Below the pieces are notes generated by a model, which was given only the letters and a program-made list of their open reading frames with translations, was not told the DNA's origin and searched no databases. From assembly GCF_900091585.1 (NCBI RefSeq), contig NZ_FMHT01000003.1:2527501-2591500 (forward strand): a stretch of DNA of 64,000 nucleotides, read 5' to 3'. The translations under genes were made by a program, and so were the position numbers. How positions within the stretch are numbered: position 1 is the stretch's first letter; each line of letters begins with the position of its first letter. Source of the DNA: Micromonospora nigra (GTDB lineage Bacteria; Actinomycetota; Actinomycetes; Mycobacteriales; Micromonosporaceae). Shown here piece after piece: positions 37,576 to 53,989 of the stretch.

Positions 37576-37649
<74 letters not shown>

Positions 37650-37654
37650 CCGAG

Positions 37655-37693: not shown

Positions 37694-37699
37694 GCATTC

Positions 37700-37721
37700 G
37701 TACAGCAGTCGAGTACAGCAG
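37700..37721. promoter_or_regulatory. Pair of GTACAGCAG 9-mers, candidate integrase arm site (left, unit A)
   Basis: Two direct copies of GTACAGCAG start at 37700 and 37713, that is 13 bases apart. The same pair with the same spacing appears at all four ends of the two elements. Confidence 0.6.
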
Positions 37722-37727
37722 CGGCGG

Positions 37728-38944
37728 TCACCGCAAGCTCTCCCCCAGGCGCTTGAGGGCGTCGCGGGTGGCGCCCGAGGACGCCTGCGAGTAGATCTCC
37801 ATCGTCACCGACACCTCCGCGTGCCGGAGCACCTGCATGATGACGCGCGGGTGCACGTCCAGGTCGACGAGCAGGGTCGCGCAGGTACGCCGGGCGTCGT
37901 GAACGGTGATCTTCCGGATCCCGGCACGGGTACAGCGGGCGTCCCAGGAACGATTCACGTTGCGCGGCTCCACCGGGGTTCCGTAGCGGGTGGTGAACAG
38001 CAGCCGCGACCCCTGCCAGGCAATGCCCGCCTGATCGCGGTCGTTCCGCTTCGCCTGCTGGCGCAGTTCGAGCGCCGCCGCGCAGATGTCCGGCAACGGG
38101 AGTGTGGCGTCCGAGGTCTGCGTCTTGGTCTCCCGGTGCAGCAGTTGGCCGCCGACCCGCTGCAACTGCCAGCCGATCGACAACTCCCCCGCCGCCAGGT
38201 CGACGGCGTCCTCGGTGAGGCCGAGCACCTCGCCCTTGCGCAGGCCGAGCACCAGGATCAACACGTACGCGGCGTAGAGCGGATCGCGGTCGGCCCGCGC
38301 GGATTCCAGGAAGCGACGTGCCTCGTCGCTGGTCCAGGCCCGGCCCCTGTGGCGGCGGACGGGTGGGAGCTTGACCAGGGCGGCGGCGTTGCGGGTGACC
38401 AGTTCCTCGGTGGCGGCGTGGTTGAGCGCCGAGCGCAGCACGCCCCGGACGTCCTTGACCGTGCGGGCGGACGGCGTGTCACCGCAGCACCGACCGAGCG
38501 AGCAGCACCGCCGCCTGAGTTCCGGGCGACGGGCGTCCTTGCCCTGCGCGCAGCACTGGCAGGTGCGGGCCACCTCGTTGATCCACGTCTGCACGTCGCG
38601 CACCTGGAGCCGGTCGAGCCGCTTCCACCAAGGCCGGGGATCACGTACAACCGGAGGATCGTCTCGTACGTAGCGCAGGTCAGCGGCGCGAGGTTGGGGC
38701 GCACCACTTCGCGGTGCCAGTACGCCAGGTAGTCGCCGAGGGTCGGAACCCGGGTGGCGACCGGCCCGGCCTTGGCCTGCTGGTGCAGCTTGATCCACTT
38801 GTCGTGGACGATCTCGCGGGTCTGGCCGTAGACATACTTTCGGGTCCGCTTGCCGTCGGGCTTGGTGACCCAGACGTAGGCGGCGAAGCCGTTGCGGTAG
38901 GGGAAGATCGAGCCTTCGCCGTTGGCGCGTGCACGCCCCGGCAT
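37728..38944 (-). pseudogene. Tyrosine-recombinase integrase of the AICE, frameshifted
   Basis: The N-terminal part (RANGEGSIFPYRNGFAAYVW, up to YETILRLYVIPGLG) is read from the ATG at 38944. The rest, from KRLDRLQVRDVQTWINEVAR through a Cys-rich insert, lies in another frame. The catalytic core with Arg in LGLRKGEVLGL, HDARRT, and HAEVSVTMEIYSQ also lies in that second frame. The switch falls near 38626 to 38633, and one missing base explains it; the corrected product would have about 405 residues. All catalytic residues are downstream of the break. It belongs to the pSAM2-type integrases that use tRNA genes. Either the gene is inactive or the base was lost in sequencing. It overlaps the Xis stop by one base. 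Confidence 0.88.
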
Positions 38945-39141
38945 CAAGCGGCCTCCTGCCGCTCGACCTGCTCACGGATGTACTCGTCGACCCACTCGGG
39001 CAGGATGCGGCGGTACTTGCCGTCCTTGATGGAGCGCAGTTCGCCGGTGGCGATCTTCGCCTTGACCTTGGACAGGCCGAAGCCGAGCAGGACGGCGACC
39101 TCGGCGGGTGAGTACCAGCGCGGGGTGAGTTCTCGGCTCAT
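38944..39141 (-). CDS. xis: Excisionase, helix-turn-helix (MerR/Xis-like)
   Basis: The 65-residue protein starts MSRELTPRWYSPAEVAVLLGFG and continues with LSKVKAKIATGELRSIKDGKYRRILPEWVDEYI. This is the winged helix excisionase pattern of actinomycete elements, where the factor turns the integrase toward excision. The start overlaps the Rep stop by four bases (ATGA), and the stop shares one base with the integrase start, so rep, xis and int are translated as a set. Confidence 0.9.
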   Translation of the reverse strand: MSRELTPRWYSPAEVAVLLGFGLSKVKAKIATGELRSIKDGKYRRILPEWVDEYIREQVERQEAA

Positions 39142-40730
39142 GCGGCGACCCCGCTCAGCCACGCTTCGTGGGCGAGTTCTTCCCGACCGATGCGTTGGCG
39201 TTCGCGGTATTGGGCGGCGGAGGTGTTGGCGAGCAGGGTGTCTCCGTTGGTCAGCCAGCCGGAGCCGACGAATGCCAGCGTGCCCACGGTGACCGTGCCG
39301 GCGGTGACCGTGCCGGCGGTGTCGGGGGTGTCGGCGTCTTCGGTGCGGCGGTAGACGGCGCGGGTGTCGCGGAGCAGGCCGAAGGTGACCGAGTAGCGGC
39401 GGGCCTTGGTGAGGAAGTGGCCGCCGTAGCCGAGCATGTGCGCCCAGCGGCGCAGACCGGCGTAGGGGTTCGGTTTGCTGTCAAGGTCGCCTTGACGCTC
39501 GCCGGTCAGGGTGGCGGTGGGGTTGCTGTGGCGGTGGGTGGGGCGGCCGAGTCGCCAGCAGGAGTCGATGAGCCGGGCGAGGTGGTCACCTTCCGGGTCG
39601 GCGTAGGCGTCGATGGTGTCGGGGTTGAGTCGGGTGGAGCAATGGCCGGTGGCCTCGGTGGACTTGGTGGCGTACTTGGCCAGGTAGGCGGCCACCTTCC
39701 CGTCGGTTACGTCCCCGTCGCCGGCGCCGATGCGACGTACGTCGACCTGCTCACCCCAGGCGACCGGCCAGCCCCGTGGCCGGTCTGGGTGGGCGGGGGT
39801 GGTGACGGTGATCTGCCGGGCGGCGGCGTGCACGGCGTCGTCAAGGTCATCGGCGGTGATGCCGGCCGGCGGCGGGACCAGGGCGTGCCGGTCGTGGGGG
39901 TCGACGCCGTCGAGACGCAGCAGGACGTGGAAGTGCACCGCGCCCCGGCGCTGCATCTCGGCGACCTTGCCGTGCGACACCCGCACCGGAGGCACCCGAC
40001 GCACCTTGCCGGAGTCGGTGACGACCTGGACGGGGGCGATGCCTCGTCGCCGGCACAGTGCGGTGAGGTGACGTTCGATGGCCTGCTTGGTGCGCCGCCA
40101 CAGCTCGCCGGAGAAGGCGTTCCAGACAACCTGGTGATCGTGGTCGTAGCAGGCCAGGCACAGTGGCCGACCGAGCTGTGGATCATTGGCGTCGTGTCGG
40201 GTGAAGCAGGCTGCGGGCTGCCCGTGCGGGCAGGTGCCGGCGGTGCGGCGGGCGTGGCAGGGTGCCGGTCGACAGTCGCAGCGCCGTCGGTCTCCGCAGG
40301 TGTGCCGGGGGATGTGCCGGTGGTGCACCGCCCCGAAGGACGGCGCGGTGAAGGTGGCTAAGACGACCGGATGCGCGGCGACGGTGGCGGGGACGGTCTT
40401 GCCACCGGTCAGGCCGCAGCGGACGACCTGGAAGGCGTCACCGGCGTAGACCCAGGCGCAGTCGGGGCACTGGGCGGCACGGCGGTTGCCGCACGCCTTG
40501 TACAGCGTCCGGTCAGGCAACTCGTCGGTATGCCGCTCCCCAACGACGCGGCCCGTGCCGGGCTCGACGGCGGTGAGGGTGCCGGTCAGGCGGACCGGCC
40601 GGGTGCAGCCGGCGGCGGCGCGGGTGTGCTCCAGCCAGCCGAAGAAATCCGGCGCGGCAGCACGTTGCAGGGCTTGAGCGTCACGGCCGGCGGCGAGGCC
40701 GGGGCGGTGCAGGGTGAGCGGGGCAGACAC
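39138..40730 (-). CDS. HUH-type replication initiator (RepSA-like)
   Basis: The 530-residue protein contains the HUH motif HFH at 266 to 268 (RRGAVHFHVLLRLDG) and a candidate catalytic Tyr349 in VAAYLAKYATKS, plus Cys/His-rich segments (CGDRRRCDCRPAPCH, CLACYDHDH) that may bind zinc. It matches the RepSA family that drives rolling-circle replication of excised AICEs such as pSAM2. The GTG at 40730 has an AGGAG site seven bases upstream; longer in-frame extensions have no such site. Its stop overlaps xis. Confidence 0.9.
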   Translation of the reverse strand: MSAPLTLHRPGLAAGRDAQALQRAAAPDFFGWLEHTRAAAGCTRPVRLTGTLTAVEPGTGRVVGERHTDELPDRTLYKACGNRRAAQCPDCAWVYAGDAFQVVRCGLTGGKTVPATVAAHPVVLATFTAPSFGAVHHRHIPRHTCGDRRRCDCRPAPCHARRTAGTCPHGQPAACFTRHDANDPQLGRPLCLACYDHDHQVVWNAFSGELWRRTKQAIERHLTALCRRRGIAPVQVVTDSGKVRRVPPVRVSHGKVAEMQRRGAVHFHVLLRLDGVDPHDRHALVPPPAGITADDLDDAVHAAARQITVTTPAHPDRPRGWPVAWGEQVDVRRIGAGDGDVTDGKVAAYLAKYATKSTEATGHCSTRLNPDTIDAYADPEGDHLARLIDSCWRLGRPTHRHSNPTATLTGERQGDLDSKPNPYAGLRRWAHMLGYGGHFLTKARRYSVTFGLLRDTRAVYRRTEDADTPDTAGTVTAGTVTVGTLAFVGSGWLTNGDTLLANTSAAQYRERQRIGREELAHEAWLSGVAA

Positions 40731-41802
40731 GGTTCTCTCCTCGGGGCGGTGGCAGGGACAGCGGACGAACTGCCACCGGACGCCGGAGCGTTCTCCGTCG
40801 GTGGTGTTCGTGGTGTCTCCTGGCACCGCTGGGGAGAGCGGCTGACGCCGGAGGGCGGAAGCGTGGCCATTGCCAGCGACCGCCGTTGGGGCATGTCCTT
40901 CCGGTTGCTGATCCGTAGGTGATGCCGAGGCGGGTGGGGTGCCTGATCGTCGGCTTCCGGCGGGTTGCCGCAGGCGATCCCCACCCGTCGAGGTGCGCGA
41001 ATCCGGGCCATCGTGGACGGCGGGAAGGCCGTGCTGGGCCGCTCAGCGGATTACGTGGCCAGCACAGTGGCCGGTGCGATCGAGAGCCGGCGGGACGTGG
41101 CCCGCATCAGCGACAGGAAGGCCGCTCGGCAACTCCGAAGTCGAGTCCAGCGATTCGGCGGGAAGGCCGCGCTGGCGTGCTCGACGAGGGCCAGAGTAGC
41201 ACCGGGTACCGACACGTCAACCCGCCGTGACCCCGCAACATCGAGCGGACCGGCCGGCTGCCGGCTGGTGTGGGAGGACTTTCTGTACGTCTATCAAGGC
41301 GGCCCTGAACGGGCCGCACGCGCCGCCGCCTGGGCGCGCGCCGGCCGCTGCCGCTGTCGCTCTGCGGCCGTCACGCCTGATGCCCGGCTGCTGGCGCGGA
41401 AGGCGGGAAGCCCGGAGGGCCGCCGCAGAACGACAGGGGCGGTGACCGTGGTTTGGTGGGCCGGCTGCCGGCCGGGTCGCGCGGCCACGAGCCCGCGCGG
41501 CATAGGGGAGCGCACGCCGGCCGCGTCGGCGAGTTGGCGGCGGTCGCGGGGTTGCGGTTAGTGCGCCTCCGGCGGGGGCGCTCCGGCTCCAGGATGGCCC
41601 GGGCTTCGTCGGCGGGTCCAGGTCCGTGGGTGGTTGCGGTGGGGAGCCATCCCGCCTGCCGTCGACCCGGGCGAGCCGAGCAGACCACCGCCCGACCCGC
41701 CAGCGTCCGTACGAGCCGTCAAGGTCCGCTTGACGTGCCGGGCCGGGCGGCAGCCCGCTCCCCATGCGGGCGGGTCGATGGCAAACGGGATGGCAAGCAA
41801 GC
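40731..41802. other. 1.07 kb without a convincing gene inside unit A
   Basis: AICEs normally carry the FtsK-like transfer gene and small regulators on this side of rep. Here several frames are open because of high GC, but none shows a recognisable domain, ribosome binding site or stable codon pattern. A fragment around 40980 to 41180 on the plus strand has a repeated GG(K/R)A...RS pattern that may be decayed coding sequence. The end near 41810 marks a sharp fall in GC. Confidence 0.55.
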
Positions 41803-43724: not shown

Positions 43725-43949
43725 TTACCGGGGAAGCGGGTTGGCGACGTAGACGCCCTTGCCCTGCCGGCCGTCGATCAGCCCTTCGGCCTTGAGCAGG
43801 AGCATGGCGGCGCGGATGACGGTGTTGCTGACCTTGTAGTGCTCACAGAGGGCGGCGAACGAGGGCAGCTTGTCACCCGGCTTCAACTGACCGGAGCTGA
43901 CTTGCTCGCGGATATCCCGGACGACCTGTAGATAGGCAGCTTCAGACAT
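43725..43949 (-). CDS. GntR-type winged-helix regulator, 74 residues (copy A)
   Basis: The protein is little more than a GntR DNA-binding domain: LQVVRDIREQVSSGQLKPGDKLPSFAALCEHYKVSNTVIRAAMLLLKAEGLI, then GRQGKGVYVANPL (about residues 6 to 72). No ligand domain follows. In AICEs such small GntR proteins (KorSA-like) repress transfer or replication genes. An identical copy lies at 52694. It faces away from the three small genes that follow, so the gap between them probably holds its operator. Confidence 0.88.
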   Translation of the reverse strand: MSEAAYLQVVRDIREQVSSGQLKPGDKLPSFAALCEHYKVSNTVIRAAMLLLKAEGLIDGRQGKGVYVANPLPR

Positions 43950-44167
43950 CGGTGGTGCTCCCAGCTTGGCGGCTGGTGCAAGCAGACCACACCCAAGACC
44001 CGACTTACAACGCTATGTGTCGCAGCTGTTGACCCTGCGCACATTGCGTCTTAAGTTGCTCGTGGGGCTACTCAGCTTGGCGGCCGAGTCGTCCTGCCGT
44101 GGGTGCCCTGTCTCCGGACACGGCTGACCGGGTGCCCACGGGATCCCCAACGCCGGCGGGAGGCGCG

Positions 44168-44437
44168 ATGACCAGGCCGAACGATGCAACTGATCCGACC
44201 GCAGGTTCCGCGCGGGATGCCGGCTACCACCAGAGTCGGGACAACAGCCGGCGACGCGTGTCCTACGACCAGTACATCTTGGCGGCGGCGCTGACCCTCG
44301 CCCGCCGGCACCGGCCCATCTGGTCATGGCAGCAGTGGCGGCGCATCTGCCGCTGCGGAAGCGACCTACCCTGCCGAAGCCGCCATCCCATCCCGATCAA
44401 CCGCGGCCACTGGCCGAGCCAGGACGCGCCGCGATGA
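44168..44437 (+). CDS. Small AICE protein of unknown function, 89 residues (copy A)
   Basis: The ATG has a GGGAGG site seven bases upstream. The protein has a polar N terminus, a middle helix with YDQYILAAALTLARRHRPIW, and WRRICRCGSDLPCRSRH, where three Cys residues could form part of a metal site. It overlaps the next gene by four bases (ATGA). I know similar short genes only as uncharacterised parts of actinomycete elements. Identical to 53137 to 53406. Confidence 0.75.
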   Translation: MTRPNDATDPTAGSARDAGYHQSRDNSRRRVSYDQYILAAALTLARRHRPIWSWQQWRRICRCGSDLPCRSRHPIPINRGHWPSQDAPR

Positions 44438-44652
44438 CGACACACCTCCCGGTCACACCGGGCTGGACCTGCGGCGGCTGCGGAGCCGACTGGCCCTGCA
44501 AGACCCGCCGACGGGAGCTACGGGCGGAGTACGACCGCGCCCCGGTGTCGCTGGCCCTCTACCTGGCCGCCCAACTCGTCGACGCCGCCCAGGACCTGAC
44601 CCACGTCCCCGCCGGCCACCTGCACCACCGATTCCTCGGCTGGACCCGATGA
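44434..44652 (+). CDS. Small Cys-motif AICE protein, 72 residues (copy A)
   Basis: The protein starts MTTHLPVTPGWTCGGCGADWPC, giving a CxxC plus a further Cys that look like a zinc knuckle. A helical part follows (ALYLAAQLVDAAQDLTHVP) and an end with LHHRFLGWTR. The ATG overlaps the previous stop and the stop overlaps the next start, both by four bases. Function is unknown; similar element genes are sometimes annotated as flavin reductase without support. Identical to 53403 to 53621. Confidence 0.75.
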   Translation: MTTHLPVTPGWTCGGCGADWPCKTRRRELRAEYDRAPVSLALYLAAQLVDAAQDLTHVPAGHLHHRFLGWTR

Positions 44653-44822
44653 GCATCCTGCGACACGGCGACGAGAAGTACCACTACAGCGACGGCTCCC
44701 ACAAGTGGATCCCGCCGGACCCCGACTACGACCAGGAGGTCTGGGACGAACAGGTCCGCCAACACAAGCAGGGCCACCTGAGGAACGAACAACCCAAGGT
44801 CCGCATCCAACGGCTCGTGTGA
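44649..44822 (+). CDS. Small acidic/aromatic AICE protein, 57 residues (copy A)
   Basis: An ATG that overlaps the previous stop opens a 57-codon frame. The product starts MSILRHGDEKYHYSDGSHKW and has a Pro/Asp/Tyr-rich middle and a basic end (PKVRIQRLV). No family is recognised. The overlap chain across three genes and the identical second copy (53618 to 53791) argue that it is real. Confidence 0.7.
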   Translation: MSILRHGDEKYHYSDGSHKWIPPDPDYDQEVWDEQVRQHKQGHLRNEQPKVRIQRLV

Positions 44823-44830
44823 CGCCCGCA

Positions 44831-44852
44831 GTACAGCAGCGAAGTACAGCAA
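44831..44852. promoter_or_regulatory. Pair of GTACAGCA 9-mers, candidate arm site (right, unit A)
   Basis: Direct copies GTACAGCAG and GTACAGCAA start at 44831 and 44844, again 13 bases apart. They lie about 85 bases inside the right att core. Confidence 0.6.
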
Positions 44853-45028
44853 CCGTGCGACCCGTACCCGACCGAAACGAACGCCAGCAGGCCGGTTGAC
44901 CTCGGACGACATGCCATCCGACCGGCTCGCCGAGAGTTCGGGACGAAGAGGTCGTCGGCTCGAATCCGGCCACCCCGACCGAGGTCAGGGGCCACTCTCC
45001 ATCGATGAGAGTGGCCCCTGATGCATTC

Positions 45029-45050
45029 GTACAGCAGTCGCGTACGGCAG
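45029..45050. promoter_or_regulatory. Pair of GTAC(A/G)GCAG 9-mers, candidate arm site (left, unit B)
   Basis: Copies GTACAGCAG and GTACGGCAG start at 45029 and 45042, 13 bases apart, in the same place relative to the core as at the left end of unit A. Confidence 0.55.
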
Positions 45051-45056
45051 CGGCGG

Positions 45057-45086
45057 TCACCGCAGGCTCTCCCCCAGGCGCTTGAG
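45057..45086 (-). pseudogene. Integrase remnant, last codons only
   Basis: The minus strand encodes LKRLGESLR followed by TGA, exactly as at the end of the unit A integrase. Upstream (rightwards) the match stops at 45086 and unrelated sequence begins. Unit B therefore once had its own integrase gene and lost it by deletion with a breakpoint here. Confidence 0.85.
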
Positions 45087-45124
45087 CGCAGGCGATCCGG
45101 CCGGCGGTCGCGCGCATCGACGGT

Positions 45125-45604
45125 TCACCGCATCTTGTGGACTGCGTAGACGATCTCCTGCCGCAACAGCGCCGCCTCCTCGTCACGGTCGCACAGCAGC
45201 AGCACCTTGAACGGGCTGCCCTTGCCCTCCGGCTGGCCGAGCGGGCTCGCCCAGTGACGAACGGCTTGATACAGGATTCGGAATAACGTGTGCTGATCCT
45301 CGACACTGCTCGACAGCAACTGGGGCGCGTTCTCGACCACGATCAGGTACCCGTCCGCCGGTAACCAGTTCAGATCACGAAGGCAGTCGGACAACGCATC
45401 CCAGTTCCAGCCGAAGTAGCCAGGAAAGAGGAGCGCGTCGGAGAACTCGTAGAGGGCGTGGTCCGCATCCGTCATCCTCGTTCCGTCAAGGTGGGCAACG
45501 ACGAACCTGCCCGTTGCCGGTAGCACAGCGGCGAGCTCCACCGGGGCACTGCCCGAGCAGACCGCGAGCTGGTCAGTGGAGCCGCTCCACCAGCCGTTCA
45601 TCAT
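45125..45604 (-). CDS. Barstar-family ribonuclease inhibitor
   Basis: The 159-residue protein has a barstar-like domain in its C-terminal two thirds: FVVAHLDGTRMTDADHALYEFSDALLFPGYFGWNWDALSDCLRDL (from about residue 34), YLIVVENA, and FKVLLLCD. The FPGYFGWNWDALSDCL block is the diagnostic part of the family. Barstars bind and block barnase-type ribonucleases. No ribonuclease gene is visible, so it is an orphan immunity gene or protects against an element encoded elsewhere. The ATG at 45604 overlaps the stop of a short upstream frame (ATGA). Confidence 0.85.
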   Translation of the reverse strand: MMNGWWSGSTDQLAVCSGSAPVELAAVLPATGRFVVAHLDGTRMTDADHALYEFSDALLFPGYFGWNWDALSDCLRDLNWLPADGYLIVVENAPQLLSSSVEDQHTLFRILYQAVRHWASPLGQPEGKGSPFKVLLLCDRDEEAALLRQEIVYAVHKMR

Positions 45605-45783
45605 TCAGCCCCATCACGATCGCCGTAGTTCACGACCTCAGCGGCCTCGTGCACGCCGTGCCCCATGGCCTTCAGTCTGCCCGGGAGGCAGCACAGCACG
45701 ACGGGCAGGCCCTCGACCGATTGACTGGGTGTGCCGCGATCAGCGCGCTGAGGCGTCGCGCAGTTGGCGGTCGGGTGTCGCAT
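45601..45783 (-). pseudogene. Truncated ORF upstream of barstar
   Basis: The last about 40 codons (VEGLPVVLCCLPGRLKAMG, then HGVHEAAEVVNYGDRDGAE) look like the end of a real protein and are coupled to barstar by an ATGA overlap. Upstream the frame degrades into sequence without protein character just before the left end of the IS3 element at 45803. The 5' part was probably lost during or after the IS insertion. I cannot name the family. Confidence 0.5.
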
Positions 45784-45832
45784 ATCAGCCGACGGAGGAC
45801 ACTGAGTTCCCCCCGCTTCGATGGAGCGGTGG

Positions 45833-46759
45833 TTACCTGCTGCCGGCTGGTGCAGGGGTGGCGATAGTTGGTTCGGCTGGGTTGTGCTGGCGGGTGTGCC
45901 AGGCGGTTTCGTGCTCGTCGGGGCTGAGGTAGCCCAGTTCCTTCTGAATGCGGCGAGTGTTGTACCAGCCGTCGATGTAGGCGAAGATCGCGTTCTCGGC
46001 CTCGTCGCGGGTCCGCCACGATGTGCGGTAGACGAGTTCGATCTTCAGTGTCGACCAGAAGTTCTCCATGAGCGCGTTGTCGAACGAGTCGCCGACGGAG
46101 CCCATCGACGGCAGGATCCCGTTGTCCTGTAAGCGTTCCGCGAAGCGGAACGACGTGTAGTTCGATCCCCTGTCGCTGTGGTGGATCAACTGGCCGTCGC
46201 GGACGTCGCGCGACCAGATGCCGTATTCGAGGGCGGCGAGGATCAGGTCGGTGTCGCAGCGGTCGGAGGTCTTCCAGCCGACGATCCGGCGGGAGAAGGC
46301 GTCCCGGACCGCTGCCAACCAGAACACCCCTTCGCCGCAGGGGATGCGGGTGGCGTCGGCGACCCAGAGCCGGTTCGGCCCGGTCGCGGTGAACTGCCGG
46401 TTGACCAGGTCCGGCGCCGGCGTCGCCCGAGGGTCCTGTCGGGTGCAGCCGCCCCGCCAGCCGCGACGCAGGAACGCGCCCTGCCAGCCCTGTTGCGCCA
46501 TCAGTCGTTCCACCCGCTTGCGGCCCACGCGAATGCCGTCGCGGCGTAGCTGCCGGTGCACCCGGTCCGCACCGTAGGTGTGCCCGGACGCCTCCCAGAT
46601 CTCGTGGATGTTGGAGATCAGGCCCAGGTCGACCACGTCGCGGTCGCAGGGCTGTTCGGCCTGCTTGAGCCACGCGTAGTACGTCGAGGCGCCGATGTTC
46701 AGGACCCGTAGCAGGAGCGCGACCGCGAACTGGTCACGGTGTTCATAAATGAACGTCAT
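45833..46759 (-). CDS. IS3-family transposase OrfB (DDE integrase core)
   Basis: The 308-residue protein has an HTH_21-type segment (SGHTYGADRVHRQLRRDGIRVGRKRVERLM) and an rve catalytic core with D in WVADATRI, D in HHSDRGSNYTS, and E in NALMENFWSTLKIE. It ends with the typical YNTRRIQKELGYLSPDEHE. All three acidic residues are present, so it appears functional. The ATG overlaps the orfA stop by four bases (ATGA); IS3 elements often make a fused product by frameshifting here. Confidence 0.94.
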   Translation of the reverse strand: MTFIYEHRDQFAVALLLRVLNIGASTYYAWLKQAEQPCDRDVVDLGLISNIHEIWEASGHTYGADRVHRQLRRDGIRVGRKRVERLMAQQGWQGAFLRRGWRGGCTRQDPRATPAPDLVNRQFTATGPNRLWVADATRIPCGEGVFWLAAVRDAFSRRIVGWKTSDRCDTDLILAALEYGIWSRDVRDGQLIHHSDRGSNYTSFRFAERLQDNGILPSMGSVGDSFDNALMENFWSTLKIELVYRTSWRTRDEAENAIFAYIDGWYNTRRIQKELGYLSPDEHETAWHTRQHNPAEPTIATPAPAGSR

Positions 46760-47091
46760 GACCGTCGCCGGGTCGGGTCGAGCTCCGCCGCGAAATACGC
46801 GCTCGCCGCTTTCAGGATCTCGTTCGCCCGCCGCAGCTCAGCGACTTCCCGGCGCAGCCGCCGGTTCTCCTCGGCCATCTCGCTGGTGGGCCGGTCATGA
46901 CGCTCACCAGCGTCGGCCTCGGCCTGACGGATCCAGTTCCGCAACGCCTCGTGATGCACGCCCAACTGCTCGGCCAGGCGCCGGATCACGGGCTTGGGGT
47001 CCGAATCGAGGTACAAGCGCACAGCGCGCTGGCGCAACTCATCGGGGTACTTCTTCGGTGCTGCCACGGACGACTTCCTCCCCACGGCCAT
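46756..47091 (-). CDS. IS3-family transposase OrfA (HTH and leucine zipper)
   Basis: The 111-residue protein begins with a helix-turn-helix (KKYPDELRQRAVRLYLDSDPKPVIRRLAEQLGVHHEALRNWIRQ, from about residue 11), which binds the element ends. A Leu/Glu/Arg coiled coil follows (MAEENRRLRREVAELRRANEILKAASAYFAAELD). The ATG at 47091 gives the usual start; earlier codons run into the inverted repeat. Confidence 0.93.
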   Translation of the reverse strand: MAVGRKSSVAAPKKYPDELRQRAVRLYLDSDPKPVIRRLAEQLGVHHEALRNWIRQAEADAGERHDRPTSEMAEENRRLRREVAELRRANEILKAASAYFAAELDPTRRRS

Positions 47092-47133
47092 CAGACCATG
47101 ATCAAGAAGCTCCATGAAAGCGGGGGTGGCTCA

Positions 47134-48310
47134 AGCCTGTGCGAGAGGCGCCCACCACTGTGTTGTCCGTTTCGCCTGACCGGTGACGTGTCCACGTGTT
47201 CTCGACGCGACCGAGAAGGGCGGACCTCACCAGCATGGCAGCGAAGAAGCGATCGGTCATCGGTGGTGTCGACACCCACCGCGACACCCACCACGCAGCG
47301 ATCATTGACAGCACCGGGGGTCTCCTCGGCGACGCCGAGTTCCCCGCGACCAGCGACGGCTACGCGGAACTGCTGGCCTGGATGCGTTCCTTCGGCCGCC
47401 TGATCGCCGTCGGGGTCGAGGGCACCGGCAGCTACGGCGCTGGCCTCGCCCGGCACCTGGCCAGTCGCAAGGTCACCGTCGTCGAGGTGGACCGCCCGGA
47501 CCGCAGGACCCGCCGGGCCAAGGGCAAATCCGACCCGATCGACGCCATCGCCGCCGCCCGAGCTACCCTCGCCGGCACCGCCATGGGTATCCCGAAGACC
47601 CGCACCGGCCCGGTCGAAGCCATCCGCGCCCTGCGAGTAGCCCGCCAAGGTGCGGTCAAGGCCCGCACGGCGGCGATCAACCAGATGCGCGGCCTGGTCG
47701 CCGCCGCGCCCGAGCCTCTGCGAGCTGAGCTGACCAAGCTCAGCGTCGCCGTACTGGTCAACCGCTGCACCGCCCTGACCATCGACCCGACCCGCCTCAA
47801 CGACCCGGAACACGCCACCGCAGCCGCCTTGGCCGGACTCGCCCGGCGAGTCGCCGCTCTGACCGGGGAGATCACCACTCTCGACCGGCAGCTGGCACCG
47901 CTGGTCCGCCAGGCCGCACCACGCACCAGCGCCCTGTTCGGCGTCGGCACCGACGTCGCAGCCCAACTGCTCACCACCGCCGGCGACAACCCCGACCGGC
48001 TGCGCTCCGAAGCAGCCCTGGCCCACCTCTGCGGCGCGGCACCCATCCCCGCCAGCTCCGGACGGGTGCGCCGCCACCGCCTCCACCGAGGAGGCGACCG
48101 CGGCGCCAACCACGCCCTACACACCATCGCGCTCTGCCGCCTGCACTACGACCATCGCACCCGCGCCTACCAACAACGACGCATCACCGAAGGCCTCAGC
48201 AAGCAAGAGATCCTGCGCTGCCTCAAGCGCTACATCGTCCGCGACGTCTACACCGCCCTACGCGCAGACTTCGCCGCCCTCACCCCTTGACCTCCATAGG
48301 AGCATCGGGA
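47134..48310 (+). mobile_element. IS110-family insertion sequence (ends approximate)
   Basis: The element comprises the transposase gene at 47235 with about 100 bases of upstream non-coding sequence and a short downstream end near TTGACCTCCATAGGAGCATC. IS110 elements lack inverted repeats and carry a bridge RNA in the non-coding end, so boundaries cannot be fixed by eye. The left end directly abuts the IS3 inverted repeat at 47133 and may be truncated by it. Confidence 0.7.
47235..48290 (+). CDS. IS110-family transposase (DEDD recombinase)
   Basis: The 351-residue protein has the RuvC-like N-terminal domain with D in GGVDTHRDTHHAA, E in VGVEGTGSYGAGLARHL and D in KGKSDPIDAIAAA. The C-terminal Tnp_20 domain has LFGVGTDVAAQLL and CGAAPIPASSGRVRRHRLHRGGDRGANHALH, including the catalytic Ser region. 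It is full length and likely functional. The ATG at 47235 follows an AGAAGG-type site at a distance. Confidence 0.95.
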   Translation: MAAKKRSVIGGVDTHRDTHHAAIIDSTGGLLGDAEFPATSDGYAELLAWMRSFGRLIAVGVEGTGSYGAGLARHLASRKVTVVEVDRPDRRTRRAKGKSDPIDAIAAARATLAGTAMGIPKTRTGPVEAIRALRVARQGAVKARTAAINQMRGLVAAAPEPLRAELTKLSVAVLVNRCTALTIDPTRLNDPEHATAAALAGLARRVAALTGEITTLDRQLAPLVRQAAPRTSALFGVGTDVAAQLLTTAGDNPDRLRSEAALAHLCGAAPIPASSGRVRRHRLHRGGDRGANHALHTIALCRLHYDHRTRAYQQRRITEGLSKQEILRCLKRYIVRDVYTALRADFAALTP

Positions 48311-48446
48311 TGGCAACACCGCGCGAGGGCTGCTGCCGCCAGCTTTAAGCAGGGTGGCTGGGGGCCTATGCAGCGGCGCGGCTCGCCGGTGGAGGCGGGA
48401 TGCTCGGCGGTCTCCTGCTTTTCCCATAGCGCTAGGTGTCGACACA

Positions 48447-48475
48447 ATTCGAGCCCCGCTTTGCGGGGCCCGAAT
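48447..48475. terminator. GC-rich hairpin after the SecB-like gene
   Basis: Arms ATTCGAGCCCCGC and GCGGGGCCCGAAT (one mismatch) enclose a TTT loop, 21 bases beyond the SecB-like stop in the direction of that operon. It probably ends the toxin-antitoxin-chaperone transcript and shields it from the IS110 side. Confidence 0.75.
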
Positions 48476-48496
48476 CGCATTGTTTCTAAAGAGAAA

Positions 48497-49063
48497 TCAA
48501 GACTTGGCAGCTCGTTTGGGTGCCCTCTTGCGAGGTGGCGCTTTAGCGCCAATAGCCCGAGGCTCCTCCGGGGTCGTCGATGAATCCGGATAGGGCAGTT
48601 TGAAGGTCGCAAGAGTCAAAGGTGGCAGGCCCATTCGCGAGCTCATGCTCTGCACGAACTCCCTAGCGTAGGGGTAGAGGGCGATAGTGCCTGTCGTCTT
48701 CGAAAATGAGTAAAGTTCTGCGCCTTCGGGAGGATTTCTTCCGTTGACATCGAGTCGGTAGAGGCTGCCGAGCTTAAAGGCTATCGTAGCAAGTTTCCTT
48801 GGCTGCGCGTCCTCGCTGGAGATTCCGTCAACGAGCTCTTGGATCTCAACCTCGTATTCGATCTCCAGGATAAAGAAATCGTCACCCTCGTCATAAGAAA
48901 AGGAGGGGGTCATTTCGAGATGCCAGGTCAAGTCATTCCCCTCTTCGGGGAAATGCTCGAAGTTGAGCTGAGCGTTGAAGAGACGCACGTCTGCAATGTC
49001 GGCCATTGCTGCGACGCGAGAAGCCTCACGCTGTGCTCTCGCGAGGTCGAAATCTTCGCTCAC
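48497..49063 (-). CDS. SecB-like chaperone of a toxin-antitoxin-chaperone system
   Basis: The 188-residue protein has the SecB beta-sheet core (VRLFNAQLNFEHF, HLEMTPSFSYDEGDDFFILEIEYEVEI). Its C-terminal helix LYPYAREFVQSMSSRMGLPPLTLATFKLP aligns closely with the FPYARE...FPQLNLAP signature of SecB. A Lys/Arg/Ala-rich tail follows. Classical SecB is absent from most actinobacteria; M. tuberculosis has Rv1957, which guards the antitoxin HigA1 in a TAC system. The GTG start overlaps the HigA-like stop by four bases (GTGA), and the toxin gene is further upstream, giving the same gene order. Confidence 0.85.
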   Translation of the reverse strand: MSEDFDLARAQREASRVAAMADIADVRLFNAQLNFEHFPEEGNDLTWHLEMTPSFSYDEGDDFFILEIEYEVEIQELVDGISSEDAQPRKLATIAFKLGSLYRLDVNGRNPPEGAELYSFSKTTGTIALYPYAREFVQSMSSRMGLPPLTLATFKLPYPDSSTTPEEPRAIGAKAPPRKRAPKRAAKS

Positions 49064-49572
49064 AGTGCTCCCACAAGCCGAGTACGAGAAGAATCGAGAT
49101 GTGCAACGGGCGCAGCAGGAGCACTGCTGCGCCAATTGCGGGCGGTCGAAGTAATCGGAGCGGGAGGTCTCGCATCCTTCAGGCGCGTAGAAGCCGGCGA
49201 CCTGGAGTAAAAGCGGGCTTCGCACCACGGCGAGTCGTGAGGCATATCAATCGCAACCACAAGCCTCGCCGTAACAGCGCGCGCGTATCTCTGAAGCGTC
49301 GAAAGCTGAGGATCGACGTTCCCGTTTTCCAGATCAGAGACAGCGGACTGAGTCGTTTCCATCCGCTCGGCGACCTTTTTCTGACTGATTCGCAGGTCTC
49401 GGCGGACCTTCACGAGCCGACGAAGGAGAGCTTGGCGAAGCGCGACGTCTTCAAGGGAGGCCGCAAAGCTGGGGCTTCTCGAAGCGGCCTCCGCCAAGAC
49501 CTCGCCCAGCTCATCGTAGTCGTCGTCCGGGTCGAGCACATCGGGGTTGGTCTTCTCGATCACGTTCGACAT
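49060..49572 (-). CDS. higA: HigA-like antitoxin (XRE helix-turn-helix) with C-terminal extension
   Basis: The 170-residue protein has an acidic N terminus, an XRE domain (LVKVRRDLRISQKKVAERMETTQSAVSDLENGNVDP, residues 53 to 88), and a C-terminal extension of about 65 residues starting IDMPHDSPWCEARFY. In TAC systems such an extension is the chaperone-addiction region that SecB must hold for the antitoxin to fold. It may repress the operon through its HTH. It is coupled to the SecB-like gene and lies 138 bases after the toxin gene; an inverted repeat in that gap could be a second operator. Confidence 0.85.
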   Translation of the reverse strand: MSNVIEKTNPDVLDPDDDYDELGEVLAEAASRSPSFAASLEDVALRQALLRRLVKVRRDLRISQKKVAERMETTQSAVSDLENGNVDPQLSTLQRYARAVTARLVVAIDMPHDSPWCEARFYSRSPASTRLKDARPPAPITSTARNWRSSAPAAPVAHLDSSRTRLVGAL

Positions 49573-49644
49573 GAGGATCCCCCTGCTTCAGAAGCGGGTG
49601 ACTGCGGCCGGTCATGGTCATACGAGGCGTAACGACGGTGTCCG

Positions 49645-49664
49645 CTATCGGTTACGACCGATAG
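49645..49664. promoter_or_regulatory. Inverted repeat between toxin and antitoxin genes, candidate HigA operator
   Basis: CTATCGGT and ACCGATAG are perfect 8-base arms separated by TACG. The repeat lies 73 bases upstream of the antitoxin start, in a gap of 138 bases that is unusually long for a toxin-antitoxin pair. Confidence 0.6.
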
Positions 49665-49710
49665 TACAGTCCAGAGGTCGGGCATGCTACACGAATCTTT
49701 GCGGCCCGCC

Positions 49711-50070
49711 CTACTTGCCGCCCCGCTTGCGCCAGGCGTCCATACGCTGACGCGCCAGGTCGAGGTCCGACTTGCGGGCCTTCTCCTGGTTCTTGTAGAC
49801 GCAGAGCGTCACGATCACGTACTTGGGGCCATCTTGGAAGAAGTACGCCCGGTACGGGTTGTTACGCACGTGGGTCCGGAACTCAAGCAGGCCCTTGCCC
49901 ACGGCCTTGATCTCACCTCGGTTCTCCAGCCCGTGCTCGTAGCGCCTGAACAGGTCACCAAGGGCAGCTTGGCCCTCCTCCTCCAGGGCGAAAAACTCCT
50001 CACGTGCCACGGGGTTCCCGGTCTCTGACTTGTAAAACCGCACCCGCCGCACGCGGGGAGAGTCGTACAC
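49711..50070 (-). CDS. higB: HigB-like toxin (RelE/ParE superfamily, Gp49-like)
   Basis: The 119-residue protein shows the Gp49/HigB pattern: VRFYKSETGNPVAREEFFALEE at the N terminus, KAVGKGLLEFRTHVRNNPYRAYFF in the middle, and YVIVTLCVYKNQEKARKSDLDLARQRMDAWRKR at the C terminus. The many Lys/Arg residues and the FRTH...YRAYFF strands fit an mRNA-cleaving ribosome-dependent endonuclease. It is the first gene of the operon, as in HigB1-HigA1-SecB of M. tuberculosis. The start is GTG 50070. Confidence 0.88.
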   Translation of the reverse strand: MYDSPRVRRVRFYKSETGNPVAREEFFALEEEGQAALGDLFRRYEHGLENRGEIKAVGKGLLEFRTHVRNNPYRAYFFQDGPKYVIVTLCVYKNQEKARKSDLDLARQRMDAWRKRGGK

Positions 50071-50370
50071 CGGTTCGACTCCCTTCTGGCTTCATTGCCC
50101 AGGGGTGGGGAAGGGGAAGGTCTTCGCAGGTCTTGCCGCTGAGGGGAGATCGAAGTGTAGTCGGGACGTGACGAACTGTCAGCTTTGGCGCGCGCGGAGG
50201 TTCATGAGACACGAGTGTCGACGTGTAGCGAACCCGACACGCCGTGGGAGCGGGCACAGGGCTCCCTGGCGCGCCTGGCAACCGCCGGGGAGCCTAGCTA
50301 GTGACGGAAGTCCGACCGCCGGCGCCCGGGAATGGCAGGCGCAGGCGGCACGGGCTCCATCGCGCGATCG
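50071..50370. other. 300-bp promoter region of the toxin operon
   Basis: No gene-like frame is present. The stretch must contain the leftward promoter for higB and the end of the ImmA transcript. I see no strong hairpin; a G-rich tract lies at 50101 to 50120. Confidence 0.4.
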
Positions 50371-51525
50371 CTACTTAACGAGCTTCAGCACGGGCCGCAT
50401 CTGATCCATGCCAAGCAGACTCCTCACCCAAGGCGTTGGCCAGGAGAGATCTTCCGCTAGCTCTGCAACGGTGAGACCCTGCTTCCTGGCGAGGGCGAAG
50501 GCATGAGAGAGCATGGCGGGCTGCTCGCCTGTGTAGGCAGCAATGGATTCACCTCGGAAGCCTGGTTGCTCACTGACCGCTTGGAGGCGCTGAAACGCGC
50601 GGCTCGCGGCGGAGTCGGAGAGGAGGCCGACCTCTCGCGAACGATAGAGAAGTGACTTCACCGATACTCCCCAGGTCAACTGAAGATCCGCGAGCTGGCC
50701 TAGGTCTACCCGCTTGGGTAGCTGCGGGATAATGCTTTCACGTGGAGTTAAGAACTCGGCAGCAAATGCATCGGCTTCGCGCTCCTGCTGTAGGTCGCCG
50801 GGAACCGCCTCCCCGTGCAGAACGATGTGCCCCAATTCGTGAGCAGCACTAAATCGGTGTCGATATACGTTGTCCGCTCTGTTGGGGGTTAGAACGATTA
50901 TCGGTCGAGGGGTAGCCGAGGTTGAAAAGGCGTCCACTGAACGGGCGTCCGGATCTGGAGGTGGTGTAGTTGCCACTATTCCGTGAGACTCGATGCGGCG
51001 TACGAGATGGGAGATTGGTCCGTCGCCCAGCCCCCAAGCTTGACGGACAATACGGGCGGCCATGCGTGGCTCACGTATCGTCTCAGGCATTTCAGGCAGA
51101 TTCACCGGAGGGAGCTGAACGCGGCGTTCGAGGGCGTTAGACAACTCCCACACAATCTCGGTAAAGGAGACGGCCTTCGCTCTTTGATATGAGCGAGTGG
51201 CGCGGAGGCTTCGAAAGTGTGCCTTGGATGCGTCAAGCCTCGCATGCGGTCGGCCTGCCAGGAAGAACGAGGTTGGTACTCCGAGCTTTTCCCCCATCCG
51301 GGATATGAGTTCGGGCCGTGGCCTCGAAACGCCCAACTCGTACTGTCCTACAGCTGCTGATGTGACCCCGATCTCCTCCGCGAGTCTGCTTTTCGTCCAC
51401 CCCGCAAGTTGGCGTGCTTGCGTGAGCCGGCTCCCATCAAAGGCATGGTTAATGCCCGAGGCGGAGACGTTGCCCCGCCTCGGGCGATCCGTCTGAACAA
51501 GGGTGAGTTGCTCGAAATCCTTCAT
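50371..51525 (-). CDS. XRE-ImmA/IrrE fusion: HTH regulator with zinc metallopeptidase
   Basis: The 384-residue protein has an N-terminal XRE helix-turn-helix (RLTQARQLAGWTKSRLAEEIGVTSAAVGQYELG, about 33 to 65). A Peptidase_M78 domain follows with HELGH (His229, Glu230, His233) and a third ligand in QEREADAFAAEFLTPRE (Glu250). Proteins of this type cleave or sense repressors and are frequent in mobile elements and toxin-antitoxin or phage-response modules. It lies 33 bases after an unknown gene on the same strand, so the two form an operon. Confidence 0.92.
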   Translation of the reverse strand: MKDFEQLTLVQTDRPRRGNVSASGINHAFDGSRLTQARQLAGWTKSRLAEEIGVTSAAVGQYELGVSRPRPELISRMGEKLGVPTSFFLAGRPHARLDASKAHFRSLRATRSYQRAKAVSFTEIVWELSNALERRVQLPPVNLPEMPETIREPRMAARIVRQAWGLGDGPISHLVRRIESHGIVATTPPPDPDARSVDAFSTSATPRPIIVLTPNRADNVYRHRFSAAHELGHIVLHGEAVPGDLQQEREADAFAAEFLTPRESIIPQLPKRVDLGQLADLQLTWGVSVKSLLYRSREVGLLSDSAASRAFQRLQAVSEQPGFRGESIAAYTGEQPAMLSHAFALARKQGLTVAELAEDLSWPTPWVRSLLGMDQMRPVLKLVK

Positions 51526-51558
51526 GCTGTGCCGATCGGGTTGCCATTGTCGTCTCTG

Positions 51559-52299
51559 CTAGCGGGCAAGTTCTCCCGAGTCACCGGGGAAGCCGAGCGG
51601 GGGCAGATCGCCCTCGTTGAACCGGGGGGTAGCCGCGGGCTGGCTGACCGGCACGTTGATCGGGCCGCTCCGGCGGAAGCTGAGCAACGCATGCGAGACG
51701 GGCAGTTCCTCGGGATCCTGCCTCCAAGCGAGAGTTCCGTCGGCCTCCATCATGGCTTCGCCCCACCATGCCTTCAGAAGGCCGGAGTGGGCGTGCGAGA
51801 CGTAAGGCACGTAGATGACCTTGGTCTGAGGTGCCAGGTAGATCAACTCAGGCCGCTTCAAGACGGGCGTCTCCGAGAGATCCTCCGGACTGAAGAGGCT
51901 AAAAAGGTCGGCGGCCGGAGCGGCGGCGGCAAGCATCGCGGAGAGTTCCCTGGCGACCTTGGTCGTCAGCCTCGCCTTGCTGGCAGGGACCGACAGGCTG
52001 TCCGCATGCCTGAACGGCAGAAGCAGGCGGCCGTTCACGACCATCAGGTTGTAGCAAGCGCGAGGCGGCCGGAACCGCTGCGCACCGGGCACCTTGCTCA
52101 GCTGCAGCTCGACCTCCTGATGGACCTTCGGCCACATCCCGCCGTAGGGCTGCTTGGTGTCCAGGCCAGACATCTGCTGAATGAGCACAGCTCGGCCCTG
52201 AGACTGAACGAGGGCGTCAACCAACCGGTGCTGGACATCGGTCGCCTGCGGGCCGAAGTTCTGCTGAGCCCAGTGCGACGCCGCCGGTTCCTGGAGCAT
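51559..52299 (-). CDS. Unknown 246-residue protein paired with XRE-ImmA
   Basis: The protein begins MLQEPAASHWAQQNFGPQ and contains VHQEVELQLSKVPGAQRFRPPRACYNLMVVNGRLLLPFRHAD, IYLAPQTKVIYVPYVSHAHSGLLKAWWGEA, and a Pro-rich end. The strand-rich middle and conserved-looking aromatic segments suggest a globular enzyme or sensor, but no catalytic motif is clear. Being first in the operon with XRE-ImmA, it may be the target or the effector that the metallopeptidase controls. I found no family name for it. Confidence 0.75.
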   Translation of the reverse strand: MLQEPAASHWAQQNFGPQATDVQHRLVDALVQSQGRAVLIQQMSGLDTKQPYGGMWPKVHQEVELQLSKVPGAQRFRPPRACYNLMVVNGRLLLPFRHADSLSVPASKARLTTKVARELSAMLAAAAPAADLFSLFSPEDLSETPVLKRPELIYLAPQTKVIYVPYVSHAHSGLLKAWWGEAMMEADGTLAWRQDPEELPVSHALLSFRRSGPINVPVSQPAATPRFNEGDLPPLGFPGDSGELAR

Positions 52300-52329
52300 G
52301 CAACCTCCACGAGGGACATGACTTTCCTT

Positions 52330-52350
52330 CTGTGCCGAATCCTAGCACAG
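52330..52350. promoter_or_regulatory. CTGTGC-N9-GCACAG inverted repeat, candidate operator of the XRE-ImmA operon
   Basis: Six-base arms with a nine-base spacer lie 31 bases upstream of the unknown gene's start. The location fits autoregulation by the XRE domain. Confidence 0.55.
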
Positions 52351-52693
52351 ATGCTTTACTTTCATGCCCAGATTTCCCGATCTCGCGCCTTCCTGCTCAG
52401 CCGTCACCACTCGACGGCACTCGGCAGCTGTGGTCGGATCTCCCGACGGGATCAACGTCCGGGTCAGCGTCGCTGCATGCACAGCGGAGGCGTTGCCACC
52501 GCCTGCTCGTCAACGACAACCTGTTGCCACCAGTCGCCAACAGCAGCGGCGACAGCAACGTGCCGATTCTCTGGATGCCAGCGACGGGCAGAGACGGACG
52601 AACGATCGAGGTCGCGGACGAAGGCAGAGGCGCACGGACGGCCTGCACAGAGCTTGTAAGCGAGGCGTCCGCGCCTCAGAAAGCGACCCCGGC

Positions 52694-52918
52694 TTACCGG
52701 GGAAGCGGGTTGGCGACGTAGACGCCCTTGCCCTGCCGGCCGTCGATCAGCCCTTCGGCCTTGAGCAGGAGCATGGCGGCGCGGATGACGGTGTTGCTGA
52801 CCTTGTAGTGCTCACAGAGGGCGGCGAACGAGGGCAGCTTGTCACCCGGCTTCAACTGACCGGAGCTGACTTGCTCGCGGATATCCCGGACGACCTGTAG
52901 ATAGGCAGCTTCAGACAT
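52694..52918 (-). CDS. GntR-type winged-helix regulator, 74 residues (copy B)
   Basis: Identical in protein sequence to the GntR gene at 43725 to 43949. As both copies are intact, either could repress shared target operators in both units. Confidence 0.88.
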   Translation of the reverse strand: MSEAAYLQVVRDIREQVSSGQLKPGDKLPSFAALCEHYKVSNTVIRAAMLLLKAEGLIDGRQGKGVYVANPLPR

Positions 52919-53136
52919 CGGTGGTGCTCCCAGCTTGGCGGCTGGTGCAAGCAGACCACACCCAAGACCCGACTTACAACGCTATGTGTCGCAGCTGTTG
53001 ACCCTGCGCACATTGCGTCTTAAGTTGCTCGTGGGGCTACTCAGCTTGGCGGCCGAGTCGTCCTGCCGTGGGTGCCCTGTCTCCGGACACGGCTGACCGG
53101 GTGCCCACGGGATCCCCAACGCCGGCGGGAGGCGCG

Positions 53137-53406
53137 ATGACCAGGCCGAACGATGCAACTGATCCGACCGCAGGTTCCGCGCGGGATGCCGGCTACCACC
53201 AGAGTCGGGACAACAGCCGGCGACGCGTGTCCTACGACCAGTACATCTTGGCGGCGGCGCTGACCCTCGCCCGCCGGCACCGGCCCATCTGGTCATGGCA
53301 GCAGTGGCGGCGCATCTGCCGCTGCGGAAGCGACCTACCCTGCCGAAGCCGCCATCCCATCCCGATCAACCGCGGCCACTGGCCGAGCCAGGACGCGCCG
53401 CGATGA
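53137..53406 (+). CDS. Small AICE protein, 89 residues (copy B)
   Basis: Identical to the protein of 44168 to 44437, with the same GGGAGG site and the same four-base overlap to the next gene. Confidence 0.75.
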   Translation: MTRPNDATDPTAGSARDAGYHQSRDNSRRRVSYDQYILAAALTLARRHRPIWSWQQWRRICRCGSDLPCRSRHPIPINRGHWPSQDAPR

Positions 53407-53621
53407 CGACACACCTCCCGGTCACACCGGGCTGGACCTGCGGCGGCTGCGGAGCCGACTGGCCCTGCAAGACCCGCCGACGGGAGCTACGGGCGGAGTA
53501 CGACCGCGCCCCGGTGTCGCTGGCCCTCTACCTGGCCGCCCAACTCGTCGACGCCGCCCAGGACCTGACCCACGTCCCCGCCGGCCACCTGCACCACCGA
53601 TTCCTCGGCTGGACCCGATGA
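53403..53621 (+). CDS. Small Cys-motif AICE protein, 72 residues (copy B)
   Basis: Identical to the protein of 44434 to 44652, with the CGGCGADWPC segment and four-base overlaps at both ends. Confidence 0.75.
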   Translation: MTTHLPVTPGWTCGGCGADWPCKTRRRELRAEYDRAPVSLALYLAAQLVDAAQDLTHVPAGHLHHRFLGWTR

Positions 53622-53791
53622 GCATCCTGCGACACGGCGACGAGAAGTACCACTACAGCGACGGCTCCCACAAGTGGATCCCGCCGGACCCCGACTACGA
53701 CCAGGAGGTCTGGGACGAACAGGTCCGCCAACACAAGCAGGGCCACCTGAGGAACGAACAACCCAAGGTCCGCATCCAACGGCTCGTGTGA
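53618..53791 (+). CDS. Small acidic/aromatic AICE protein, 57 residues (copy B)
   Basis: Identical to the protein of 44649 to 44822. It is the last gene before the right end of unit B. Confidence 0.7.
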   Translation: MSILRHGDEKYHYSDGSHKWIPPDPDYDQEVWDEQVRQHKQGHLRNEQPKVRIQRLV

Positions 53792-53799
53792 CGCCCGCA

Positions 53800-53821
53800 G
53801 TACAGCAGCGAAGTACAGCAA
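53800..53821. promoter_or_regulatory. Pair of GTACAGCA 9-mers, candidate arm site (right, unit B)
   Basis: Copies start at 53800 and 53813, 13 bases apart, as part of the duplicated module. Confidence 0.55.
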
Positions 53822-53904
53822 CCGTGCGACCCGTACCCGACCGAAACGAACGCCAGCAGGCCGGTTGACCTCGGACGACATGCCATCCGACCGGCTCGCC
53901 GAGA

Positions 53905-53948
53905 GTTCGGGACGAAGAGGTCGTCGGCTCGAATCCGGCTACCCCGAC
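53905..53948. other. Right attachment core, att core 3
   Basis: The 44 bases from GTTCGGGACGAAG to ACCCCGAC repeat the tRNA-Pro 3' half, with T for C at 53940 relative to core 2. Similarity to the hairpin and integrase flank of cores 1 and 2 stops here, which marks the right limit of unit B. Confidence 0.88.
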
Positions 53949-53989
53949 GGAGCGCAGGAAAGCACCCCCCCTTGAGCAGGCCGAACTTT

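Follow-up and report, generated by a model that had tools for sequence, protein, structure and literature searches.

A probable HigB-HigA-SecB-type toxin-antitoxin-chaperone operon with a candidate internal operator on an att-bounded unit at tRNA-Pro in Micromonospora nigra

The closest counterpart of the operon described here is the toxin-antitoxin-chaperone (TAC) system of Mycobacterium tuberculosis, Rv1955-Rv1956-Rv1957 (HigB1-HigA1-SecB-TA). The proposed catalytic residues of HigB1 are E66, R68, N73, F93, K95, Q98, and K99, with K58 and R77 among the further residues near the mRNA (PMC9098466). The addiction region of the antitoxin comprises 108-WHRLSSYR-115 and 137-WARHISVR-144 (PMC5105189), and a hydrophobic C terminus of the ClpX type is a feature of the TAC antitoxin (PMC8165232). 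Both promoters and the HigA1 operator, ATATAGG(N6)CCTATAT, are upstream of higB1 (PMC3968373, PMC8669151). TAC chaperones do not follow taxonomy and are mostly found in regions with signs of horizontal transfer (PMC4257090).

In the HigBAC TAC system of E. coli C496, abortive infection is triggered by the major tail protein of lambda (PMC11980606). This system is alike by component type to the one described here, having a HigB toxin, a HigA antitoxin, and a SecB-like chaperone, and it shows what such a module can do. CmdTAC of E. coli is presumably the same system as PD-T4-9. In CmdTAC the SecB-like chaperone is the phage sensor and the antitoxin is unstable (PMC11618068). The CmdTAC / PD-T4-9 toxin is an mRNA ADP-ribosyltransferase, whereas the toxin here is of the Gp49 RNase type, without ADP-ribosyltransferase, and membership of CmdTAC was thereby ruled out; the chaperone has a weak PADLOC match to PD-T4-9_C (E 0.0065). 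No report of a toxin-antitoxin-chaperone system with Micromonospora was found in the open-licence literature. The genus is not known for pathogens.

The window analysed is a stretch of 64,000 nucleotides of the M. nigra genome (contig NZ_FMHT01000003.1, positions 2,527,501 to 2,591,500), to which all coordinates refer. The three leftward genes described in a sequence-only reading of this DNA were all found as intact open reading frames on the minus strand, in the order toxin (50070..49711; 119 aa, GTG start), antitoxin (49572..49060; 170 aa), and chaperone (49063..48497; 188 aa). The toxin is Gp49/HigB-like and belongs to the HigB/RelE superfamily (PF05973, Gp49, E 8.7e-14). The antitoxin is XRE/HigA-like, with its helix-turn-helix (HTH) at about residues 51-100 (HTH_3, E 9.3e-9). 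The stop of the antitoxin gene and the start of the chaperone gene share GTGA at 49063-49060 on the minus strand, as had been stated, and this overlap may couple their translation. A gap of 138 bp, absent from the sequence-only reading, separates toxin and antitoxin genes. The closest named homologues of the chaperone and the antitoxin are from Micromonospora. Some homologues carry the NCBI names 'SecB-like chaperone', 'protein-export chaperone SecB', and 'antitoxin HigA', therefore the broad HigA/SecB assignment is already partly on record.

Chance open reading frames were ruled out by the Pfam matches and the conserved homologues, antitoxin extension included. A frameshifted or spurious antitoxin tail was likewise ruled out, because homologues keep the tail in frame. 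A longer chaperone reading frame, 49228-48497, was rejected; its first 55 residues cross the antitoxin gene in another frame and the starts of most homologues agree with the GTG at 49063.

The only sequence relatives of the toxin in the PDB at E up to 10 are M. tuberculosis HigB1 structures 7nbu/7awk (E about 8e-14), with 38/105 residues identical. Seven of the nine catalytic or mRNA-contacting positions of HigB1 are kept (K58, E66, R68, N73, R77, K95, and K99); V replaces F93 and E replaces Q98. Among the toxins of five other triplets E66, R68, R77, and K95 are kept in all five, N73 and K99 in four each, and K58 in one. K58 is required for toxicity in M. tuberculosis, and the D or E found at this position in the L002, L003, L004, and L032 toxins counts against the present reading.

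The antitoxin has a C-terminal extension from about residue 108 (49060..49251, minus strand) that is conserved in homologues. In an alignment (A4) of 21 of 187 homologous proteins, hand-picked for cover and including the M. nigra antitoxin, W116 and W147 are present in 21/21 rows and Y122 and R124 in at least 90%. The segment W116-CEARF-Y122-S-R124 (49201..49227, minus strand) is the probable chaperone-binding core, and W147 (49132..49134, minus strand), the second conserved Trp, can be compared with W137 of M. tuberculosis. The spacing of six between W116 and Y122 is that of W108 and Y114 in M. tuberculosis (PMC5105189, PMC6377645), which argues that the tail is a variant form of the motif already known and not an unrelated one. 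The extension had been described as different in sequence from the known addiction region; most of its letters do differ, but the Trp/Tyr anchors stand at the same spacing. R110 of M. tuberculosis, two residues after the Trp, has no equivalent here, where E118 follows W116. The Trp-Tyr spacing is 8 in L003 (= L037) and L004 (= L035) and, by eye, 8 in L026 and 9 in L032. The antitoxin ends in Ala-Leu, which fits a ClpX tail, while the last residue is R, Q, or K in 17 of the 21 rows. In the predicted model the HTH is well modelled and residues 111-170 have pLDDT values of 41-60; on this model the tail, from about 108 to 170, is poorly structured or disordered.

The third product falls below the cut-off in single-sequence searches for SecB (Pfam E 0.0025, 18.2 of 26 bits; the NCBIfam cut-off was also missed), but the family profile and the predicted fold are decisive for its being SecB-like. 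When its predicted structure was compared with SecB and Rv1957, a SecB fold was present, nearer to that of Rv1957 than to export SecB; the lack of such a fold, which the sequence-only reading had named as a refuting outcome, was thus not observed. Identity to Rv1957 is 33% over 151 aligned residues, whereas 10 of the 15 published tail-binding positions are identical (binomial P 0.008); the remaining five are V, W, I, S, and G in the M. nigra chaperone. D27, R29, F67, L108, P155, and L157 are unchanged in 22/22 chaperone sequences, including this one. The chaperone alignment (A3) contains the M. nigra protein and 16 of 18 homologues found by search. P0021, a metagenome protein in which N-terminal toxin sequence is joined to the C-terminal part of the chaperone, was left out of A3; this fusion is probably an assembly join.

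The HigB-HigA-SecB identity and the likeness to Rv1955-Rv1957 put forward in the sequence-only reading have held up, with sequence, fold, active-site and binding-site residues, and gene order in agreement. The two systems share gene order, toxin family, most active-site residues, an XRE antitoxin with a Trp...Tyr tail, the SecB-TA fold, and most of the tail-binding site. It is therefore very likely that the operon is a TAC module of the Rv1955-Rv1957 kind. In the mechanism that we infer, as regards toxicity, chaperone dependence, tetramer, operator binding, internal promoter, and trigger alike, the first gene would encode a HigB/RelE-type toxin that cuts mRNA in the ribosome. The second would encode an XRE antitoxin dependent on the chaperone through its disordered tail. 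The third would encode a tetrameric SecB-like chaperone gripping this tail at W116...Y122 through a D25/R27/L101 pocket and an L146-P147-P148-L149 loop. While the chaperone is free, the antitoxin would fold, block the toxin, and occupy a palindrome in the toxin-antitoxin gap, repressing from there a promoter that serves the antitoxin and chaperone only. If a phage or misfolded protein were to titrate the chaperone, or the element were lost, the antitoxin would be degraded and the toxin freed. Only a third of the sequence is identical to that of the mycobacterial system, yet the antitoxin tail and the chaperone groove have kept the same anchors, and the chaperone-addiction contact can therefore be tested through natural variation.

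In a further difference from M. tuberculosis, the operon is on a mobile unit at a tRNA-Pro gene. The unit, its borders, and its RmrA-like neighbour are laid out here. The integration site is tRNA-Pro (CGG) at 37576..37651 on the plus strand. The tRNA-Pro element of the sequence-only reading is real, but it consists of two att-bounded units, with att starts at 37607, 44936, and 53905, and the TAC operon is in the second. The first unit is pSAM2-like, having att repeats, a tyrosine integrase beside the tRNA (37728..38975, minus strand; PF00589 E 5e-16), and the pSAM2-type replication initiator RepSA (39138..40826, minus strand; PF20199 E 4.4e-142). The second unit, 44936-53952, has as its left border a repeat of the tRNA-Pro 3' region (44936..45086, plus strand; 146/151 identical to 37607-37757) that includes the last 30 bases of the integrase gene. 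Its right border is an att repeat (53905..53952, plus strand) 45/48 identical to the tRNA-Pro copy. After the left repeat come a barstar gene, IS3, IS110, the TAC operon, the RmrA-like gene, a gene of no assigned type, and GntR. No tyrosine integrase was found among the open reading frames scanned in the second unit, and the integrase of the first could perhaps move it.

A direct repeat of approximately 1.33 kb (43656-44983 and 52625-53952; 1320/1328 identical) ends in the att site, and the two GntR genes within its copies have identical translations. The copies mark the right ends of two tandemly arranged, related units. The barstar-family gene (45125-45604; PF01337 E 2.8e-26) is just inside the left end of the second unit. 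Two overlapping minus-strand open reading frames at 41803-43079 had no Pfam or PADLOC match at E 0.01; by eye, the 270 aa one (42267-43079) resembles RelA/SpoT, a likeness that would point to a toxSAS-type pair.

An IS110 element and an XRE-ImmA pair had been noted as flanking the operon, and these were located at 47196-48290 (transposase, plus strand; NF033542 E 8.4e-51) and 50371-51525 (minus strand). The latter gene is RmrA-like (PADLOC RmrA E 6.9e-97; PF06114 E 6.4e-16). RosmerTA (RmrT-RmrA) systems combine an ImmA-protease antitoxin with diverse toxins (PMC10440598), and the likeness to these belongs to this neighbour, outside the TAC operon. A gene of 246 aa (51559-52299), 33 bp upstream of the RmrA-like gene, had no PADLOC match. 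The stretch 50371-52299 may be a RosmerTA pair beside the TAC operon.

That the module serves as defence cargo is an evenly balanced judgement. A somewhat less probable reading of its main role is the keeping of the mobile element, in which loss of the element would stop the supply of antitoxin and chaperone and the toxin would kill or stall cured cells. In favour of maintenance, the operon is carried as cargo between att borders, in a unit whose scanned reading frames showed no tyrosine integrase, and its low G+C content (59.3%, against 72.2-73.9% outside the island) points to recent arrival. The adjoining RmrA-like second module, however, points to defence, as does the triplet on the Rhodococcus plasmid NZ_CP108045.1, which adjoins an Abi gene and is near an integrase. 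Defence and maintenance are compatible. At one other TAC locus (G010; L072:15815-19001), reading frames that are DarT-like and ADP-ribosylglycohydrolase-like by eye are present within 10 kb, and its surroundings are possibly a defence neighbourhood.

The part of the TAC operon that most merits specialist attention is its regulatory placement. A perfect 8-bp palindrome, CTATCGGT-CGTA-ACCGATAG, is present at 49645..49664 in the toxin-antitoxin gap and is a candidate antitoxin operator; when the gap was shuffled 500 times, an arm of at least 8 arose in 6. The candidate operator is thus inside the operon, whereas that of M. tuberculosis is upstream of higB1. The sequence ATCGGNNGTAACCGATA is common to the same gap in L002, L003, and L004, the chaperones of which are 37-48% identical to that of M. 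nigra. Without mismatch, the palindrome pattern has one site each in G000, G099, G225, and G010 and 0 in the other 350 of 354 family genomes, with a control pattern at 0 in the rows; the pattern was read off the four closest triplets, therefore its presence there is by construction and independent information comes only from its absence elsewhere. Among the 350 genomes without the pattern are those of the other 12 loci in which a SecB-like gene follows the antitoxin, which confines the site to the closest branch. It is also absent from L026 and the Rhodococcus triplet, which have other palindromes in the gap, given without a control. Upstream of the M. nigra toxin there is no near copy, other matches having at least 5 mismatches apart from the palindrome read backwards. 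Partial matches are present about 90 bp upstream of the L002 toxin (4 mismatches of 15) and some 500 bp upstream of the L004 toxin. The pattern also matched 41 viral contig stretches, probably by chance.

A -10-like hexamer, TACTAT (49661..49666, minus strand), overlaps the left palindrome arm, and by eye each of the four closest family triplets has TAnnAT at the corresponding position, as a candidate promoter element only. A scan of 48400-50450 for sigma-70-like promoters, requiring a -35 as well, found none in the gap. Its sole match (shuffles mean 0.2) is upstream of the toxin at 50154..50182 on the minus strand and is weak, agreeing with the consensus alone at 9/12 positions. Internal higBA promoters are known in other bacteria. 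We consider it possible, though on balance not to be expected, that antitoxin and chaperone form a separately autoregulated unit, in which the sole genomic antitoxin site overlaps a toxin-free internal promoter; the absence of the palindrome from the distant triplets and the partial upstream match in L002 lower its likelihood. If this were true, a falling antitoxin level would refill the guard pair without extra toxin, and capture of the chaperone by a phage or misfolded protein would have to outrun this refill. The module would then be a thresholded sensor, unlike the usual switch, in which toxin and antitoxin are produced jointly. With the internal palindrome, control of antitoxin and chaperone separately from the toxin becomes directly testable.

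It is improbable that the palindrome is instead an RNA hairpin, acting as attenuator or terminator. In the M. nigra sequence an 8-bp stem around a 4-nt loop is possible, but a terminator scan found none at the palindrome. The relatives, moreover, keep the bases and have no compensating pair changes, and the stem is down to 5-6 pairs in L002, L003, and L004.

Antitoxin relatives at E 1e-8 or better are found in 42 of 354 family genomes, at 44 places, of which 30 loci are covered by a test for association of tail and chaperone. A SecB-like open reading frame is directly behind the antitoxin in 16 of the 30, and 13 of these 16 have a toxin-profile match. The tails of the antitoxins with a SecB-like neighbour are 51-108 aa long in 16/16 loci, while 9 of the 14 chaperone-free antitoxins end 14-35 aa after the HTH anchor and the other 5 have a C-terminal part of another kind, of 146-148 aa. 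An early-tail Trp-x(3-8)-Tyr/Phe is found in 14 of the 16 SecB-linked antitoxins and in 0 of the 14 others; the pattern was set after the tails had been seen, the loci are non-independent lineages (L047, L048, and L050 are near-identical), and the SecB profile was partly built from loci in the same genomes. The anchor of the pattern missed L033, L034, and L039 of the 30, and a second listing missed five others. The tails of L033, L034, and L039 are 73, 73, and 52 aa, each with Trp...Tyr/Phe.

These loci bear on a further alternative, that of an ordinary two-gene HigBA with which the SecB-like gene merely rides along. HTH relatives do occur without SecB in 14 of the 30 loci, yet those 14 are also without a toxin-profile match. 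Long tails accompany SecB and are missing where it is absent, the two sides of the contact have retained their binding-site residues and Trp/Tyr anchors, and the antitoxin stop overlaps the chaperone start. This makes the two-gene reading very unlikely.

With the M. nigra toxin as query, the toxin-antitoxin-chaperone order is present at six loci (M. nigra, L002, L003, L004, L026, and the Rhodococcus plasmid), and with the toxin profile at 9 more distant family loci, three of them weak. The M. nigra chaperone as query matches 15 of 354 family genomes, 4 strongly, and the SecB-family profile matches 7 of 397 genomes of the order, a set overlapping the 354. A wider scan of genome contigs with the chaperone profile gave 9 loci, mostly from Planctomycetota and other phyla with one from Streptomyces; the toxin was found in 0/9 and an antitoxin-profile match in 2/9 (L018 and L023). 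The chaperone profile had no match in the phage collection and one in the plasmid collection, and 0 of 31 stretches were confirmed in the viral-contig scan. The sequence-only reading had proposed looking for the triplet in other tRNA-Pro islands; in three family relatives with the triplet, no tRNA gene was found within the surrounding 14-19 kb.

The canonical-SecB profile PF02556 matches control genomes with export SecB and is silent in the M. nigra genome; it also misses the TAC chaperone itself, so this result speaks only to canonical SecB. The least credible reading, that the chaperone is the general export chaperone of the host and present here by accident, can be set aside, SecB fold notwithstanding, as PF02556 matches only 3 of 354 family genomes (2 above cut-off, M. 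nigra not among them), and of the 15 SecB-like open reading frames in the family 10 are beside an antitoxin-profile match, two of these weak, and 5 adjoin another conserved gene with a weak HTH signal. The setting of the M. nigra operon is in keeping with SecB-like proteins acting as dedicated guards in bacteria that have no canonical SecB.

In L006, L007, L008, L014, and L015, five of the 15 family loci matched by the M. nigra chaperone, a SecB-like open reading frame is right behind a conserved gene of approximately 210-265 aa (alignment A5). This gene has weak HTH matches, with no Pfam or NCBIfam match above cut-off among those scanned, and PDB profile searches with it gave nothing clear. 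The start of the preceding gene is HicA-like by eye in L008, L014, and L015, and the stretch ends at the locus edge in L006 and L007. These five loci possibly represent an undescribed type of chaperone-dependent toxin-antitoxin operon.
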